From positions 1-28,435 of IMG/VR virus record IMGVR_UViG_3300027985_000165: DNA of 28,435 bases; one strand, written 5' to 3'. This document shows positions 9,020 through 26,846 of this stretch, piece after piece (position 1 is the first letter of the stretch; the number at the start of each line of letters is the position of its first letter). The stretch comes from a virus. The notes under the pieces were generated by a model. It worked only from the letters and a program-made list of their open reading frames with translations, did no database searches and was not told where the DNA came from. The position numbers and the translations under genes were made by a program.

Positions 9020-9021
9020 TA

Positions 9022-9468
9022 TCAGGCTCCAATCCGAACAGGTGCAACACCGTTGGACTTGGCATAACCCGGAGGATAATCCGTCCAGCCAAAAGCAGTG
9101 TTGGTGTCAACAGTGAGTGTTAGTGCGCCAGCGTTAGTGATGTAAACACGAACGTTATTAGCAGTAGAGGTAGTTGCGCCTGTTACTGCAAACTCCCATG
9201 TACCATCAAACGCAAACGCAGCCGCACCAGAAGCATTACCCACGCCACCATTCTTGTAGGTGTACGCAGTCAACTCTGGGGGAAGGGTGGTTGACTCAGT
9301 CTTGGTTGCATTACCAGATGCTGTAATTGATACGCCAGGACCATCAGCGAAAACAACAGGAACACCCGGCTGAATAGTCGTTGGAGTTGAAGTGGGAACG
9401 GTGATGAGCGAAAGATCACGGTAACGGATACGATCGCGTGACTCAGCGTAAACGCCATTGAGAGCCAT
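9022..9468 (-). CDS. Capsid decoration/stabilisation protein (DUF2190-like)
   Basis: The 148-aa, beta-rich, Thr/Ala/Gly-rich protein begins MALNGVYAESRDRIRYRD. The frame also opens at a TTG at 9480, but the ATG at 9468 has GGAAG at good spacing and follows the protease stop by two bases. PTTIQPGVPVVFADGPGVSI and the later TAFAFDGTWEFAV-like strands resemble small capsid cement or head-decoration proteins, which usually lie between scaffold and capsid. The position supports this; the family name is an inference. Confidence 0.55.
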   Translation of the reverse strand: MALNGVYAESRDRIRYRDLSLITVPTSTPTTIQPGVPVVFADGPGVSITASGNATKTESTTLPPELTAYTYKNGGVGNASGAAAFAFDGTWEFAVTGATTSTANNVRVYITNAGALTLTVDTNTAFGWTDYPPGYAKSNGVAPVRIGA

Positions 9469-10403: not shown

Positions 10404-11848
10404 TATTGCTGTTGGTCCATTGTATGGTCACCTTGGTTCTGGTTTGTGCCCCCGGGAACAGCACCAGTATTACCTTGACTTGGTGTCGGATCACTGGGGT
10501 TGTTCGGATCAGCACCAGCATTGAAATTGTCAGGCTTTGGCATGTTTTCGTGCATCTGCTGTACATCGAGCAGGTTCAGAACTGCATCCCGGTACTCGTC
10601 CTGGTGCAAACCGCCAGAGGTGTACGCCTGTGCAAGCGACTGTAGTTCACGGTATACCGGGTCCTGCGAGATGTTCGGGAACGTTACTTCGACATCAGTA
10701 GAACCCATGTCGATGAGTAGTTCCTCATAGAAGTCTTTCCACTCGTCTTGAATGGCCGTCATACCCTTAAGCGTTGGCTCATCAAGTGTCGTTGCGGCAC
10801 CATAAGAACCACCAGTAGCGCCGGGGGAAGAAAGCAGAGCAATGACCGGCACACCGAGCGATGTTGCAACCATTGCTGCCAACGGCTGACCGTTATTCAT
10901 GTTGACCTGTGCGCTGGGAACACCAGCACTTGAGAGCACGGTTCCACCGGGTGTGATCGCCGTGCCACCAATACCTGGCTGGGCCATTGAGATAGCGGCT
11001 TCGGTCCCAGTCTTCTTGGTGGCCTTCTGAACCGTCCATGCGATCTGCTGCAACGCCTTGACGAGTGAGGCATTGTCGGTCAAGTAAGAACTGTAGGCAA
11101 CGGTCCACACCGCAGCAGCGAGGCTATCTGGAACACCGAATGTCCAACCAGTCTGTCGGTTAGAAGTCTCGTGGTAGATAACCTCGTCCTGGGCAACAGG
11201 AATAGTCTCGCTGGTATTGGGCAGTGTAATCGTCGCCGGAATGCCCGAACCGCGACGACCACGACCAACAAGCGTGTTCTTATACCGTGAAACGGGGTAC
11301 CAGCGCTTCTTTGTGTCCTTACCGTCGCTCCACTCACGCAGGAAGTAACGAACCCGTGTTGCATCATCCGGGTCTGTAATGTACGAAGCAATCTGTGCAA
11401 GCGGAATGTGGGTCAGGATGTTGTTGGCATCACGAATGATGAACACATTGCCGTCTGTGTACTTTGCTAGGTTCAGCGTCGAACGGGCTTGGGTTGAGAA
11501 CGCAACAGCCTTGTTGTAGCGATTCTTGATCGCAGCGTCGGTCTTGGAATTGGTATTGGTAAAAGCAATACCACGACCGAACACGTAAGCATGACGAAGT
11601 TGTGCTCCACGCTTGAGCAACGGATTGACTGCGGCCATATCACGAAGGTTCTCAGTGAGTTCCTTCAGGTTGTCAAGTGTAAGGCCAGTGCCATCGTCAT
11701 TTCGACCGGTGAGTTTGGTCCATCCGATGTCTTCTAGATCAAGAACCTTCTTGGCAAGTGATTCCTCAAGCCGAGCAACTTGTTCCTGGGTACGCTCGTA
11801 GGCTTGTGTTAATGCTTCAAGTGGAGTAGTCACTATAAACCCAATCAA
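10403..11848 (-). CDS. Portal protein
   Basis: The protein has up to 481 aa. It lies between the large terminase and the protease. The portal core is recognisable from LRHAYVFGRGIAFTNTN, STLNLAKYTDGNVFIIRD, PVAQDEVIYHETSNRQTGW, SLAAAVWTVAYSSYLTDNAS and the C-terminal tunnel helix region (TTLDEPTLKGMTAIQDEW). It ends Gln/Asn-rich. The dodecameric portal is the DNA gate at one capsid vertex. The start is uncertain: a TTG at 11848 overlaps the terminase TGA without a Shine-Dalgarno sequence, and a GTG at 11833 would give the more usual start TTPLEAL. Confidence 0.85.
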   Translation of the reverse strand: MIGFIVTTPLEALTQAYERTQEQVARLEESLAKKVLDLEDIGWTKLTGRNDDGTGLTLDNLKELTENLRDMAAVNPLLKRGAQLRHAYVFGRGIAFTNTNSKTDAAIKNRYNKAVAFSTQARSTLNLAKYTDGNVFIIRDANNILTHIPLAQIASYITDPDDATRVRYFLREWSDGKDTKKRWYPVSRYKNTLVGRGRRGSGIPATITLPNTSETIPVAQDEVIYHETSNRQTGWTFGVPDSLAAAVWTVAYSSYLTDNASLVKALQQIAWTVQKATKKTGTEAAISMAQPGIGGTAITPGGTVLSSAGVPSAQVNMNNGQPLAAMVATSLGVPVIALLSSPGATGGSYGAATTLDEPTLKGMTAIQDEWKDFYEELLIDMGSTDVEVTFPNISQDPVYRELQSLAQAYTSGGLHQDEYRDAVLNLLDVQQMHENMPKPDNFNAGADPNNPSDPTPSQGNTGAVPGGTNQNQGDHTMDQQQ

Positions 11849-13404
11849 AAGTTACGCATAACAGCGAGATATCCCGGTACATCCCCAAGTATATCGTAGG
11901 GGTCCATTCGAATTTTGTCACCGGGTTGTGGATCATCCTCAGAACCAACGTCAACTGCCGAATAAATTACTGCGTCAAGATGGTCAGGAGACTTCAGACC
12001 TTTCTTCCGTTGCTCCGTCTTAGGTGCGATCTTGATACCACCAAGGTTGTTGTAGTCAAATGTCTGAGCAATGAGTTCATCCTGCAACTCTTGATCCTTC
12101 ATATCCAGATCGATCTCACCAAGTTGCATCTTGACTCGCAACTGATCGTGATGCCAAGCACGAGCATTGTCCCACTGCGCACGATCTGGTGATCCATGAC
12201 CACCCTGAATACCAACCAAGAGATATGGGGCACCACGGAACTCTGGCAATGAAGCAAGGTTAGTGTAAACACCATGACCTGTACCAGCCGCGTCGATACG
12301 AACCTGTCGTGCTCCCACCTCAAGTGCGATCTTGTGAATGGCAAAAGCGCCGTCGTATTCATTCATCTTCTGAATGGCTGTATGCCGACGAATCTTTCCA
12401 CCTTGGTTGGTGTAGATCAACGTCTCATCCTGACCACCAAGAGCAACGTCAACACCCAAGTCAATCGGCGTGCCGGGCTCGGGGTCAATCTCTGTCTCGA
12501 TGGCTTTGTTGATGACTGCCTGCGAGAAGAATGTGTTATCACTTTCATTCGGAAATTCACCGAGAACCTTGGACTGCCAGCGGGCAGAGTCCTCGCCCCA
12601 GGTAGTGCGCCAAACTTCAACCTTTTCCGGTGTGTTCATACCGGAGTTGAGCATTGCTTCTTGCTTGGCCTTGTCCTCATAGACCTCTTCACCCGTGAAG
12701 GTCGGCAAGTCAAAGGCACTGATCGTGTGCAAGTTCCAGTGCTTACTTAGTTCCTTCTTGATCCACAAGTCATGGAACATCGTTCCACGAAGGTCTGGGT
12801 TACCGATAGCGACGATCTTGTGATCGGCATTACCGGTGGTAACAGCCTCAGCCGCAACGAAGAGGTCACGTGGCACAGACCCGGCCTCATCGATGAACAC
12901 TCCGGTACCGCCGTCGCGTCGGATACCCTGGAATGAACCAACGATGTCCTGGTCCTGCGGCTTTCGACCGACGGCAAGGTGTTGAATCCCGGTGAGCGTC
13001 TTGGCTTTCCATTCAAGAGACTCGTTGATGTTGCCCGGGAATAGAGCATTGTTGGCTTGAGACAGGCTGTAGTTCTGCTTGAGATAAGCAAAGATGACGA
13101 GTTCGATCTGCGCCAGCGTCGGTGCCGAGACGATGGCAATGACATCACCGATCTCGTGTGTGGTCACGTAGTGGCACACGAGATCAGCCACCAGTAGTGA
13201 CTTCCCTGTACCGTTAGCAGACTTGATAGCGGATCGCTGGTGCTCTAGGTAGGAATGCGCAATCTCAGCCTGCTTGCTCCACCAGCGACGACCAAGAACG
13301 TCAGCAGCCCAAGCCTCCGGGTCGCGAGCATACAAGGAAACCCTTGAGCGACGACGCATCTCCTCAAGGGCTTCGTTGATTGCTTGTGTTGAAACTCTAC
13401 TCAT
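11845..13404 (-). CDS. Terminase large subunit
   Basis: The 519-aa protein has an N-terminal ATPase with Walker A SANGTGKS (residues 62-69) and Walker B GVFIDEAG (about 168-175, with catalytic Glu173). A motif III-like VAIGNPDLRGTMF follows. The C-terminal RNase H-like nuclease starts at DLGVDVALGGQDE (Asp319) and continues to SPDHLDAVIYSAVD near the end. It packages DNA into proheads and cuts concatemers. The ATG at 13404 overlaps the small-subunit stop by eight bases, and its own TGA overlaps the possible portal TTG. The call is secure. Confidence 0.95.
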   Translation of the reverse strand: MSRVSTQAINEALEEMRRRSRVSLYARDPEAWAADVLGRRWWSKQAEIAHSYLEHQRSAIKSANGTGKSLLVADLVCHYVTTHEIGDVIAIVSAPTLAQIELVIFAYLKQNYSLSQANNALFPGNINESLEWKAKTLTGIQHLAVGRKPQDQDIVGSFQGIRRDGGTGVFIDEAGSVPRDLFVAAEAVTTGNADHKIVAIGNPDLRGTMFHDLWIKKELSKHWNLHTISAFDLPTFTGEEVYEDKAKQEAMLNSGMNTPEKVEVWRTTWGEDSARWQSKVLGEFPNESDNTFFSQAVINKAIETEIDPEPGTPIDLGVDVALGGQDETLIYTNQGGKIRRHTAIQKMNEYDGAFAIHKIALEVGARQVRIDAAGTGHGVYTNLASLPEFRGAPYLLVGIQGGHGSPDRAQWDNARAWHHDQLRVKMQLGEIDLDMKDQELQDELIAQTFDYNNLGGIKIAPKTEQRKKGLKSPDHLDAVIYSAVDVGSEDDPQPGDKIRMDPYDILGDVPGYLAVMRNF

Positions 13405-23167: not shown

Positions 23168-23941
23168 CCTGTGTTCGGCAGCGTACTTGATGTTGGCACG
23201 CAAATCACCAACAGAGAGGTTACGAGACTTCCAGTAGTCGAACCCGGCTTGGTCGATCTCGAATCCGTAGAAGTCACGGAACGCCTTTCGAATCGCGCCA
23301 GACTCAGCAGTCGTGGCGAGGAACGCCGTGATCGTGTCCGTCTCACTACGGCCAGGGACGATCCAGCCGCGCCACTCTTCGATGGTACCTGGCCGATCGA
23401 GTAGGTCCGTGTAGAGAGTCTTTACTGTAACAAGCATATCGTCTTCCTCTGAATCTGTTGGTGTGGGTACTGGTGTCGGGATGTTCGGTGTGGTGGGGAT
23501 AGGCGCTGGTGTTGGTCGGTAGTACCGGTCATAGGATTTGATGTACTCAAGATGCCAGTCTTCACCGGATACACGATCCTTGATCCAGCCGTATTGTGTA
23601 CCGTAAGCCCGAACCCAAGCCTTAGTCAGACCAGTCAGGTCCAACGCCCGACCGGTCTCATGGTTGGACGTACCCGGGGTGGCGGCGCTGGCAACATTCC
23701 GCTTACGCCACCACGACTTACCCTGCCAAGTCCGCTTGTCCTTCATGGATGAGAGCAAGTAACTCGTCGTGTATCTGGCTGTGAAGAGGGCTACCTGTTC
23801 CTCGTAGGTCCGTCCTGCGTCTGTGATGCCCCCAGCCGGACAGCCAGCAGCGAGCATTCGCTGGTATGAGGCCGCAGCATCAGCGTCCAGCCACGCAGCC
23901 TTACCACTTGATGTCTTTGCTCCGATTAATGTTACGAGCAT
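23165..23941 (-). CDS. Endolysin: M15 (VanY-type) peptidase with DUF4214-like tail
   Basis: The 258-aa protein is taken from ATG at 23941, with GGAG four bases upstream; the open frame reaches 23977. Residues 1-145 form an M15 D-Ala-D-Ala carboxypeptidase/L-Ala-D-Glu peptidase: GGITDAGRTYEEQ, the zinc motif TSNHETGRALDL (H94, D101) and EDWHLEY (H130). A Pro/Thr linker (RPTPAPIPTTPNIPTPVP) leads to residues ~175-258, which resemble a DUF4214 domain (YTDLLDRPGTIEEWRGW; FRDFYGFEIDQAGFDYWKS) and may bind the wall. No signal peptide is visible, so export would need the holin. It cuts peptidoglycan peptides at lysis. Confidence 0.85.
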   Translation of the reverse strand: MLVTLIGAKTSSGKAAWLDADAAASYQRMLAAGCPAGGITDAGRTYEEQVALFTARYTTSYLLSSMKDKRTWQGKSWWRKRNVASAATPGTSNHETGRALDLTGLTKAWVRAYGTQYGWIKDRVSGEDWHLEYIKSYDRYYRPTPAPIPTTPNIPTPVPTPTDSEEDDMLVTVKTLYTDLLDRPGTIEEWRGWIVPGRSETDTITAFLATTAESGAIRKAFRDFYGFEIDQAGFDYWKSRNLSVGDLRANIKYAAEHR

Positions 23942-23985
23942 AAATCTCCGTTCATCGTGTGCCTTCGAGCATATCACATCGGCCT

Positions 23986-24016
23986 ATAGTAAATCTGGAT
24001 TTACCAAAAATTTTGG
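23986..24016 (-). promoter_or_regulatory. Endolysin promoter/operator region
   Basis: A TACTAT box (23986-23991) lies 45 bases before the endolysin ATG. Abutting it are two palindromes, TAAATC-tg-GATTTA (23990-24003) and CCAAAA-A-TTTTGG (24004-24016). They occupy the usual operator positions. No clear -35. Confidence 0.45.
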
Positions 24017-24159
24017 ACACTAGTTTAAAACCATAGTGGTTCAATACCGGGTTTTAGTGAAAAACTCCACGTGAGGCGATATTTCAAAAACTATAGACAA
24101 GTTCACCCCACCCCCGCCATGAACGCCCCACGTCCAAAAATCCGGGTCTTTGCGTGTCA

Positions 24160-24188
24160 TTGACCCTTACATCACAAACCTTTACTTT
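24160..24188 (+). promoter_or_regulatory. Sigma-70-like promoter, plus strand
   Basis: TTGACC (24160-24165), 17 bases, TACTTT (24183-24188). It is the best two-box promoter I see in the window. A second, TGC TATACC extended -10 follows at 24205-24213. No gene lies downstream for over 1.1 kb. Confidence 0.5.
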
Positions 24189-24303
24189 GCGTTTTCTTGA
24201 CCCATGCTATACCTCCACCCGTTCGTGTCATTCTTATGTGCTCATTCATACATTCATGTTTAAACAAATCCCCGGGCACTCGTGGGCTCGCACCCGTGAG
24301 GGA

Positions 24304-24340
24304 AGGAATGGGACAGGTGGCGCACCATTCCTCTTTGTTG
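24304..24340 (+). terminator. Terminator-like hairpin, plus strand
   Basis: AGGAATGG (24304-24311) pairs perfectly with CCATTCCT (24325-24332), followed by CTTTGTTG. With the promoter at 24160 it would delimit an RNA of about 145 bases. Confidence 0.4.
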
Positions 24341-24397
24341 TGTACCTTCTTGCTGACACACTGTCATGATCCAATGGTTGACCCCTGTACTACCTGT

Positions 24398-24503
24398 ATA
24401 CCCCTATGGGTATGTCATCCTATGTATGCTCATGCATACGCTCCTGTATGTATGCACTACCCATACCCCTACAGGTACCTACCCACATACCCCTATGGGT
24501 ATG
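24398..24503. repeat. 17-base direct repeat pair with small palindromes
   Basis: ATACCCCTATGGGTATG occurs at 24398-24414 and 24487-24503, 89 bases apart. Each copy is nearly self-complementary. A related ATACCCCTACAGGTA and a perfect GTATGC-tcat-GCATAC hairpin (24424-24439) lie between them. Confidence 0.7.
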
Positions 24504-24526
24504 CTCAGTTCGTGTTCAAATCGACG

Positions 24527-24588
24527 CACACATGATCGTTTATGGTGCCAAGGGTGATCGGTCCTACCTACCTATTCGATCATGTGTG
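24527..24588. repeat. 12-bp perfect inverted repeat with 38-base loop
   Basis: CACACATGATCG (24527-24538) and CGATCATGTGTG (24577-24588) are exact inverted copies. Nothing coding lies around them. Confidence 0.75.
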
Positions 24589-24941
24589 AGGGGCGTTTCC
24601 GCCGATCTCGTATGGGTGCGCACCCGTGACTGTCACCCTGCACACGCCACTCACCCCTGCCTGCCCTGCTATGCATCGGGTATTCATCCCGTCATCCCAT
24701 GTGTGTATGACCTACACTCATCCTATGGGTCACTATGTGGGACATCTGATCTTCGTTGTGTTCAGCATGTGACATTCATCCTACGGATTATCAGGTGTGT
24801 TCTGCCTGTGTTCCATGATCTTTATGTCTCTGACCTGCACCTTTATCATCGTTATGATCCTGTTACCTACTAGGGACTTGACTGTCCCTGCCTCTATGGG
24901 GAGTGTGCAGCCATCGGTTGGACGCATCACCCGCTCGCGCA

Positions 24942-25102
24942 GGTCCCGGGCACGGGACGCACGCGGCGGACGTAGGGGCCTCAGGGCCCCGGCCACGTCA
25001 CCGGGCCAGACTGGCGAACTAGCCACCATGCCGCCCCTACAGGGCGTGACGCGATAGGGCGAGGCCAGCCCCCTATGACTACCGGTCCCCTTGCACGGGA
25101 CG
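24942..25102. repeat. Repeated GTCCC/GGGAC hairpin elements
   Basis: GGTCCC-n-CACGGGACGC appears at 24942-24960 and again at 25084-25103, each with a 5-bp stem and 6-7-base loop. A GGGGCC-tcag-GGCCCC hairpin lies between (24975-24990). Confidence 0.55.
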
Positions 25103-25181
25103 CGGGTAGCGCACCGACACTGACGATGACTGCGCACACTTCACTAGCCGCCTACTCCGTAGGGCCTGGCACCGGGTGACA

Positions 25182-25208
25182 CGGTTCATGACCGGGTGTG
25201 CGCACGAG
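25182..25208 (+). repeat. 27-base repeat, copy 1
   Basis: This is identical over 27 bases to 25941-25967. It contains TTCATGACCGGGTG and the palindrome GTGCGCAC. It lies 126 bases before the start codon of the 115-aa gene. Confidence 0.8.
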
Positions 25209-25270
25209 GGAATGCCGAGGACGGGTCAACATTGGGGACAGCCCGGATTGATAGTGGGGTAGGCATTCCC
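25208..25270 (+). promoter_or_regulatory. Folded leader of the 115-aa gene
   Basis: GGGAATGCC (25208-25216) and GGCATTCCC (25262-25270) form a perfect 9-bp outer stem that encloses 45 bases, ending 37 bases before the ATG at 25308. Confidence 0.5.
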
Positions 25271-25307
25271 TTTCGCTTATCACATGCACACGGGAGAGGA
25301 AACGATC

Positions 25308-25655
25308 ATGTCAAAGTTTTACGCAGTCGTTGTCGAGGGTGCTGAGCACATCAAGCACTACGAGACCGCTTCCAACTGGTCTCGCCACATCCTCACCCCG
25401 GGCCAGTATGAGATCGTTCCGGTAGACATCCGGTACAACGAGACCACGCCTGACAAGGCGTACTACGGCCTCGTCAGGGTCCCGGGCGTGATGGTCGAGT
25501 CCTACTTCGTGAACCGCCTCTTCGCCGCGACCTCGGTCGACCACAAGACCGACCTGGCCGAACTCAGCGTCTCGCACTTCGCGCCGTACTGGTACCAGGT
25601 CAAGGACGGCGAGTCCTACGGCAACATCTTCACCATCGTTCAGGTTGACGACTGA
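25308..25655 (+). CDS. 115-aa protein, first gene of the plus-strand block
   Basis: The protein starts at ATG 25308 after GAGAGGAAACGATC, the leader shared by most plus-strand genes here; the open frame reaches 25284. It begins MSKFYAVVVEGAEHIKHYET and continues TPGQYEIVPVDIRYNETTPD and YQVKDGESYGNIFTIVQVDD: mixed alpha/beta, soluble and acidic. Third codon positions are almost all G or C, unlike the minus-strand genes and the genes after 26.9 kb. This suggests high expression or recent transfer. No function is recognised. Confidence 0.75.
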   Translation: MSKFYAVVVEGAEHIKHYETASNWSRHILTPGQYEIVPVDIRYNETTPDKAYYGLVRVPGVMVESYFVNRLFAATSVDHKTDLAELSVSHFAPYWYQVKDGESYGNIFTIVQVDD

Positions 25656-25673
25656 GACAGTCTGCCGATCTTG
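25656..25673 (+). repeat. 18-base post-stop repeat, copy 1
   Basis: GACAGTCTGCCGATCTTG directly follows the stop of the 115-aa gene. An identical copy at 25860-25877 follows the 40-aa gene. Confidence 0.8.
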
Positions 25674-25675
25674 CA

Positions 25676-25698
25676 TTAGGTAAGGGTGACCTTACCTA
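25676..25698 (+). promoter_or_regulatory. DtxR/IdeR-box-like palindrome
   Basis: TAGGTAAGG pairs with CCTTACCTA (9 bp, loop GTGA). TTAGGTAAGGGTGACCTTA matches the iron-repressor consensus at 15 of 19 positions by my count. It could also simply be a hairpin. Confidence 0.4.
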
Positions 25699-25738
25699 GT
25701 GTTGGATTTACAGACAACTACAGCGAGAGGAAACGATT

Positions 25739-25861
25739 ATGGAAACCTATTGCGCAAAGTGTGGCACGCGTCTCATTCGGGATTGGGCAGGCTGGATGCA
25801 TGTTGCGCGCCTTAGCGTGAACACTCGACACAAGCCACGACCCATTGTTCGGGAAGGCTGA
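25739..25861 (+). CDS. 40-aa zinc-knuckle microprotein
   Basis: A short ORF runs from ATG at 25739 after GAGAGGAAACGATT to TGA at 25861. It begins METYCAKCGTRLIRDWAGWM, with one CxxCG knuckle of the zinc-ribbon type, and ends in a basic stretch (NTRHKPRPIVREG). With only two Cys it may bind metal as a dimer or together with His. The leader and the 18-base tail repeat are shared with the 115-aa gene. The function is unknown. Confidence 0.65.
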   Translation: METYCAKCGTRLIRDWAGWMHVARLSVNTRHKPRPIVREG

Positions 25862-25877
25862 CAGTCTGCCGATCTTG
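25860..25877 (+). repeat. 18-base post-stop repeat, copy 2
   Basis: Identical to 25656-25673. It begins within the TGA stop of the 40-aa gene. Confidence 0.8.
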
Positions 25878-25940: not shown

Positions 25941-25967
25941 CGGTTCATGACCGGGTGTGCGCACGAG
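25941..25967 (+). repeat. 27-base repeat, copy 2
   Basis: Exact copy of 25182-25208, 140 bases before the 121-aa gene. An ACGTTG/CAACGT inverted repeat (25922-25940) adjoins it on the left. Confidence 0.8.
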
Positions 25968-25979
25968 TGGTTCCTATAC

Positions 25980-26028
25980 GGTGGACCGTTAGGACGTAAG
26001 CGTAACCGCGATAAAGGTTACGGCCACC
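25980..26028 (+). promoter_or_regulatory. Folded leader of the 121-aa gene
   Basis: The outer stem is GGTGG/CCACC (25980-25984 with 26024-26028). The inner stem is CGTAACC/GGTTACG (26001-26007 with 26016-26022). It lies between the 27-base repeat and the ribosome-binding repeats. Confidence 0.45.
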
Positions 26029-26050
26029 ATCAATCACTCACCTGCACACG

Positions 26051-26075
26051 GGAAAGGAAAGGAAAGGAAAGGAAA
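26051..26075 (+). repeat. (GGAAA)5 ribosome-binding repeat
   Basis: Five exact tandem copies of GGAAA form the Shine-Dalgarno region of the 121-aa gene, followed by CGATC and ATG. Confidence 0.85.
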
Positions 26076-26080
26076 CGATC

Positions 26081-26446
26081 ATGACGCGTGTAATGGTGTC
26101 AGATCAGGCATATGATGAGTTTCGTCGTGGCTACGTTTTGGCAATGCTCTGGGCCAACGCGTACGACGCCGAGACGGGCGAGCCGATGGAGGACATGGCG
26201 TACGCCTACCAAACGCCCGGGCGTTGGTGGATGGATACTCCTGTTGACCTCACCGATGCTGACGCGTTCCTTGAGGGCAACTACGACGCTTTGGTGAGCG
26301 TCGGCGACATGGATCAACATGGGCACGACTTCGCGCTGACGCGCAATCGTCACGGCGCGGGTTTCTGGGACCGTGGATACGGCCCGATCGGAGACGCGCT
26401 GACCGAGGCCGCGCACGTCTACGGCGAGGCTGAAGTATACCTTTGA
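26081..26446 (+). CDS. 121-aa conserved-type phage protein, unknown
   Basis: The protein starts at ATG 26081 behind five GGAAA repeats. It begins MTRVMVSDQAYDEFRRGYVL, has a helical N-terminal half (MLWANAYDAETGEPMED), and ends with the motif GHDFALTRNRHGAGFWDRGY followed by GDALTEAAHVYGEAEVYL. I know this C-terminal pattern (HDFxLTRNxHGAGFWDRG) from many phage early genes, where its function is undefined. The His/Asp/Arg set suggests a small fold with a conserved polar surface. Codon third positions are G+C-rich. Confidence 0.75.
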   Translation: MTRVMVSDQAYDEFRRGYVLAMLWANAYDAETGEPMEDMAYAYQTPGRWWMDTPVDLTDADAFLEGNYDALVSVGDMDQHGHDFALTRNRHGAGFWDRGYGPIGDALTEAAHVYGEAEVYL

Positions 26447-26462
26447 TCTAGCGCTTGAGCAT

Positions 26463-26486
26463 GGTCTAGAACACACGTTCTAGGCC
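26463..26486 (+). terminator. Hairpin after the 121-aa gene
   Basis: GGTCTAGAAC pairs with GTTCTAGGCC (10 bp, one wobble) across ACAC. The T-rich stretch comes only about 25 bases later, so it may act as a processing or stability element instead. Confidence 0.45.
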
Positions 26487-26528
26487 GTGTCCTGGTTCTA
26501 GGTTTCTTCTCTGAGAAAGGAAACGATC

Positions 26529-26846
26529 ATGTACATGCTCACGATCACGACCAAGACCTATGGCCGGACTGACTCCGGTAAGTCCTGGTCATCCAAGCCG
26601 GTCGAGACTCAGACGGAGCGCCTGCCGTGGAATGTTCAGCGCGGTCTTGGTGATCGTTACGGAAAGAACGTGCACTCCAAGATCACGAGTGCTGACACTC
26701 TGTCGTGGTTCCGTCGTCTCGGTGGGTCTGAGTACGCCGAGCGTTCTTACACGCCGATCGGTTTCATCGTGACTCGGCTCATCAGCACTGACCCCAGCCG
26801 CACGATTCGCAAGGTTCGCACGTTCAGCATCACTGACGAGAACTGA
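26529..26846 (+). CDS. 105-aa protein, unknown
   Basis: The protein starts at ATG 26529 after GAGAAAGGAAACGATC. It begins MYMLTITTKTYGRTDSGKSW, continues LGDRYGKNVHSKITSADTLS, WFRRLGGSEYAERSYTPIGF and ends RTIRKVRTFSITDEN. It is basic and beta-rich with many Ser/Thr/Arg, like small nucleic-acid-binding or modifying accessory proteins, but no family is recognised. A GAAA-tetraloop terminator follows. Confidence 0.65.
   Translation: MYMLTITTKTYGRTDSGKSWSSKPVETQTERLPWNVQRGLGDRYGKNVHSKITSADTLSWFRRLGGSEYAERSYTPIGFIVTRLISTDPSRTIRKVRTFSITDEN

Follow-up and report, generated by a model that had tools for sequence, protein, structure and literature searches.

The locus studied here raises the question of why a virus should keep more than a kilobase of DNA without genes between its late and its early-type genes. 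The window, i.e. the whole stretch of DNA analysed, comprises the 28,435 bases of the IMG/VR virus record IMGVR_UViG_3300027985_000165. Its left 24 kb form a minus-strand late operon encoding tape measure, major tail, capsid/protease, portal, terminase, exonuclease-family, tail-fibre-like and VanY-type peptidase proteins, and from 25308 rightward it carries short plus-strand genes of unassigned function, each with a strong Shine-Dalgarno sequence. The initial annotation proposed a replication origin, a master control region or a source of untranslated RNAs for the gap and did not consider a collapsed direct terminal repeat (DTR), which is the reading that the relatives favour. We propose, with a probability of about 0.75, that the gap is the genome-end or packaging junction of the phage, made of a DTR collapsed to one copy together with the leader of the early operon.

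Limits and gene content of the gap

The gap extends over 1366 bp (23942-25307) between the ATG of the first late gene at 23941, which has GGAG upstream, and the ATG of the first early-type gene at 25308, and is far longer than the other intergenic gaps of the window. The features discussed below are the following.

11845-13404, minus strand: large terminase subunit, placed by its tree in a DTR-phage clade
23165-23941, minus strand: first late gene, VanY-type peptidase (lysis), Pfam VanY E=9e-7
23942-25307, no strand: gene-free divergent region, putatively one collapsed DTR copy and the early-operon leader
~24.0-24.2 kb to ~24.9-25.1 kb: predicted repeat copy, of uncertain extent, by analogy with relatives
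24142-24166, plus strand: late-side short block CCGGGTCTTTG...TCATTGACCC, weak evidence
24398-24414, plus strand: 17-bp direct repeat, copy 1, ATACCCCTATGGGTATG, exact
24462-24477: 17-bp direct repeat, degenerate third copy
24487-24503, plus strand: 17-bp direct repeat, copy 2, exact
24531-24584, plus strand: 54-bp inverted-repeat element CATGATC-N40-GATCATG, core GGTGATCGGWCCTA, conserved in the relative G004
24897-25180, no strand: G+C-rich segment (65-74%) on the early side, matched by a similar segment in G004
25182-25305, plus strand: structured 5' leader of the early genes, sharing 27 identical nt with 25941-25967
25308-25655, plus strand: first early-type gene, 115 aa, unknown function, strong Shine-Dalgarno AGAGGAAACGATC
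25941-26080, plus strand: second early leader copy, upstream of the gene starting at 26081

The description of the gap as a divide between minus-strand late genes and plus-strand early-type genes, free of any believable open reading frame (ORF), is confirmed. The longest ORF inside (155 aa, 24406-24873) is equalled or beaten in 15% of dinucleotide shuffles, and a ribosome-binding site was present at none of the six inside ORFs checked versus all ten early starts checked. The inside ORFs gave no Pfam match above the cut-off and no PHROG match, and the 155-aa frame had no tblastn match among 50,697 phage records. The nearest relative, G004, has kept none of them in its orthologous gap. Conserved proteins across 24.2-25.1 kb, the finding that the initial annotation had named as contradicting it, were absent from the Pfam, PHROG and tblastn searches and from the G004 gap. 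The base composition is also as first described on the right side, with G+C rising from 0.47 to 0.74 at ~24.9 kb, and the left edge (23.9-24.1 kb) is A+T-rich, with 34-42% G+C.

G004 (IMG/VR 3300025891_000004, 60,995 bp) is an uncultivated contig found by a search with the major tail protein, which is 84% identical. Its gap of ~1.22 kb (7066-8288 of L053) lies between a relative of the late VanY-type gene, on the late side (29% identity, E=2e-12), and a relative of the early gene 26529-26846 (61%); since the flanking late and early genes are related, the two gaps are orthologous by position. They share a parallel G+C profile, with a rise to ~70% on the early side of G004, and the 54-bp element described below, whereas most of the DNA inside has diverged. 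The G004 contig starts near the exonuclease gene and ends in the terminase gene, so that it spans the junction and breaks elsewhere. Between its early genes (L053:8420-8450 and 9021-9050) are hairpins followed by T runs that resemble intrinsic terminators. In further comparisons, G002 has only ~0.48 kb at the late/early junction, ISF9, whose record is opened elsewhere, has no large gap, and G008, G007 and G006 have no comparable gap. Neither G004 nor G002 gave a match to a tyrosine-integrase family.

Terminal repeats at the junction of related phages

The portal and terminase of the window matched mostly those of actinophages, and the record ends were compared in ten relatives chosen from these matches. 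An exact terminal repeat of 0.8-3.2 kb, at or adjoining the late/early junction, was found in nine of them: CMP1 (791 bp), CN1A (952 bp), Jojan60 (1035 bp), Molivia (1467 bp), Amigo (1584 bp), Yappy (1602 bp), Cassita (1649 bp), Leeroy (1807 bp) and Hortus1 (3159 bp). Crosby, the most distant of the ten, has no terminal repeat at its record ends. The CN1A repeat was established from raw reads (PMC3853054), and the published figures for Amigo and Hortus1 agree with the lengths given here (PMC5513430, PMC7302621). In the terminase tree, the window groups with CN1A, G008, CMP1 and Cassita with 100/100 support, and every clade member whose ends are known (CN1A, CMP1, Cassita) is a DTR phage with an exact repeat. 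The terminase of the window is therefore placed where that of a DTR phage would be, and the gap sits at the late/early junction, as in the relatives, with a position and length comparable to those in CN1A, Jojan60 and CMP1.

The joined gene-free spans, calculated from annotated coordinates, are 1406 bp in CN1A and 1453 bp in Jojan60, versus 1366 bp here. The repeats of these two phages are gene-free and that of CMP1 is overlapped by one small annotated gene, and those of Amigo, Molivia, Leeroy, Cassita, Yappy and Hortus1 contain genes. The Clavibacter phage CN1A (NC_023549) resembles the window by its terminase (44% identical), by the same late/early orientation around the gap, by a repeat located inside its gene-free span and by a similar 5-mer usage; it differs in that its repeat is known from reads, whereas ours is predicted, and in that its terminase has an intein. 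Jojan60 (ON045087) is the best named portal match (40%), with syntenic structural genes and a gene-free span at the same junction, but its terminase belongs to a neighbouring clade and it is alike in word usage, not in sequence. The phages of Arthrobacter cluster AQ and Microbacterium cluster ED also have long direct terminal repeats adjoining the late/early junction, as would be the case here, but these are 1.5-3.2 kb long and contain genes.

Two minor observations concern these relatives. The terminases of CN1A (L015:7001-9529) and CMP1 (L060:104-2722) carry an insertion of ~300-350 aa near residue 70, annotated as an intein in the CN1A record, and the window terminase is without such an insertion. 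Jojan60 (L007) bears a Stenotrophomonas label, but it has a WhiB-like gene, and its portal and terminase are of the actinophage type; the host assignment might merit verification.

A 5-mer score trained on the repeats of CN1A, Jojan60 and CMP1 against their flanks ranks 24001-24950 highest in the contig, a result partly confounded by the non-coding status of this segment. The dinucleotide-corrected 5-mer profile correlates with those of the three repeats at r 0.16-0.21, versus -0.17 to 0.11 for the controls. Word usage thus gives moderate support to a repeat, although part of this resemblance may be common to non-coding DNA at large. No clear DNA alignment was found between the gap and the known repeats; local alignment was dropped as evidence, the opposite strand of Molivia scoring equally high. 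The motif CCYTAYGG was likewise abandoned as a family signature, being enriched in the window and Jojan60 and absent from the CN1A and CMP1 repeats.

The DTR reading is favoured because of the exact repeats of the relatives, the terminase clade, the position of the gap and the orthologous gap with its conserved element. The absence of a clear DNA alignment with the known repeats, the genes inside the repeats of six relatives, the short junction of G002, the lack of a large gap in ISF9 and the lack of an early promoter above chance count against it. T7-like DTR phages replicate through concatemers in which successive units are separated by a single repeat copy, and assembly from short reads can leave that copy at an internal position of a contig (PMC10438801). 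The virus would then be a tailed phage of the actinophage type, and ~0.8-1.1 kb of the gap would be present as a DTR at either end of its virion DNA. Replicating concatemers, like this assembly, would show these two copies merged into one, bounded by a short late-side stretch and the late operon to the left and by the early leader and operon to the right. Packaging would begin and end with a terminase cut within or next to the repeat, and the right-hand part (~24.9-25.31 kb) would hold the early-gene promoter and the structured leader. We infer both the existence of the repeat in this phage and its limits, the 28.4-kb contig holding one copy. If the gene-free hub is, as is probable, a genome-end junction, the start of the physical map would be predictable from gene order and terminase kinship. 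A long gap between divergent genes in a metagenomic phage contig may, more generally, represent a collapsed terminal repeat and not a new regulatory hub.

The gap could otherwise be only a divergent early/late regulatory region in a circularly permuted genome packaged by the headful mechanism, with no fixed ends at this place. A location between divergent operons and the presence of a structured leader agree with such a role, and both contigs that cross the gap break elsewhere, as a permuted genome would give. We nevertheless consider it unlikely, given a terminase from a clade of DTR phages, a span that matches the repeat-holding spans of CN1A and Jojan60 and stands far above the other intergenic gaps, and the lack of any promoter excess: the plus-strand promoter initially annotated does not stand out from chance, with two promoter-like sites versus 1.3 expected. 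The ends could also be of the cos type, in which case termini bearing short single-stranded overhangs would have been joined in the contig. Some actinophages, such as those of Arthrobacter clusters AM and AU, are of this type (PMC5513430) and a cos junction could likewise sit between operons, but the nearest terminase relatives have end repeats and the sole relative checked that is without them, Crosby, is the most distant, which makes cos ends very improbable.

Repeats and a conserved 54-bp element

Two of the repeats initially annotated in the gap are real. The exact 17-bp direct repeat is present in the two copies listed above, and the long inverted repeat has 12-bp arms (24527-24538/24577-24588) of a kind seen in 1% of shuffles. 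The perfect palindromes, on the other hand, are no more frequent than chance would give, with two of at least 10 bp versus 1.5 expected. Words resembling the late-side block at 24142-24166 occur in the gaps of G004 (L053 7168) and G002 (L017 17035, 17069), which is weak evidence of conservation.

The 54-bp element has equal length and the same inverted-repeat ends in the window and G004. The two copies are identical at 38 of 54 positions, versus at most 33 of 54 in 200 shuffles, and lie 724 and 725 bp upstream of the first early start codon in the window and G004. A single position differs between their arms, where a G-C pair is replaced by a compensating A-T pair. Scans for the core pattern, which covered 2.9 million viral contigs other than the window's own record, retrieved only G004 and one unrelated contig (L057); the latter has no protein or DNA similarity to the group and was rejected as a chance match. 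When the element was compared with phages by blastn, only 22-bp matches at chance level were obtained.

This conserved element is the sole fresh item of the locus, the remainder being a known kind of region. It is possible, albeit doubtful, that it represents an undescribed cis-acting signal of this lineage, for terminase recognition or as an origin, placed inside the terminal repeat at a fixed distance of 724/725 bp from the early operon. The element offers a candidate packaging or replication signal for the phage group.

The replication origin initially put forward, in which the 54-bp inverted repeat would be an initiator-binding or cruciform site, finds some origin-like traits in this conserved repeat, in the direct repeats and in the A+T-rich left edge. 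The window has no match to the DnaA box (TTWTNCACA), no sharp skew turn occurs at the element, and instead of iterons there is only an exact direct repeat in two copies with a degenerate third one; the origin is thus unsupported, and as the whole explanation of the gap we rate it as very improbable. An origin could, however, coexist with a terminal repeat.

Early leaders and early genes

The proposed collapsed repeat would be followed by the leader of the early operon, and this is where the master control region and the untranslated RNAs of the initial annotation retain a part. The right-hand end of the gap is an early operon leader, but no early promoter rises above chance; as a source of untranslated RNA, the structured 5' leader at 25182-25305 stands and the rest of the region does not. 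Both early leaders are closed by the same helix (GTGTGC/GCACAC) around stems of differing sequence, and their folding energies alone are unexceptional (z -1.8 and -1.5). An exact search with a leader 19-mer gave no match, and no useful relative emerged when viral contigs were searched with the first early protein, the VanY-type protein and the exonuclease. That small, rapidly evolving proteins or long non-coding RNAs are encoded in the gap, as the 155-aa and other frames and the stable fold at 24380-24510 (z -3.95) might suggest, is scarcely credible, given an ORF length within that of shuffles, no ribosome-binding site at the frames checked, no homologue in the Pfam, PHROG and tblastn searches, no frame kept in the G004 gap, no Rfam covariance match at gathering score in the window, and direct and inverted repeats in the DNA that can account for the fold.

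Several structures were also observed among the early genes. A very stable intergenic hairpin (25660-25715, z -5.6) opens with an 18-bp sequence of which an exact copy lies 204 bases downstream (25860-25877), and a long intergenic hairpin with a stem of ~14 pairs (26446-26531) precedes the gene at 26529. In the early-gene stretch 26321-26427, the DNA is 75-84% identical to that of genes from phages of Gordonia, Mycobacterium and Klebsiella, which suggests wide exchange or strong constraint.
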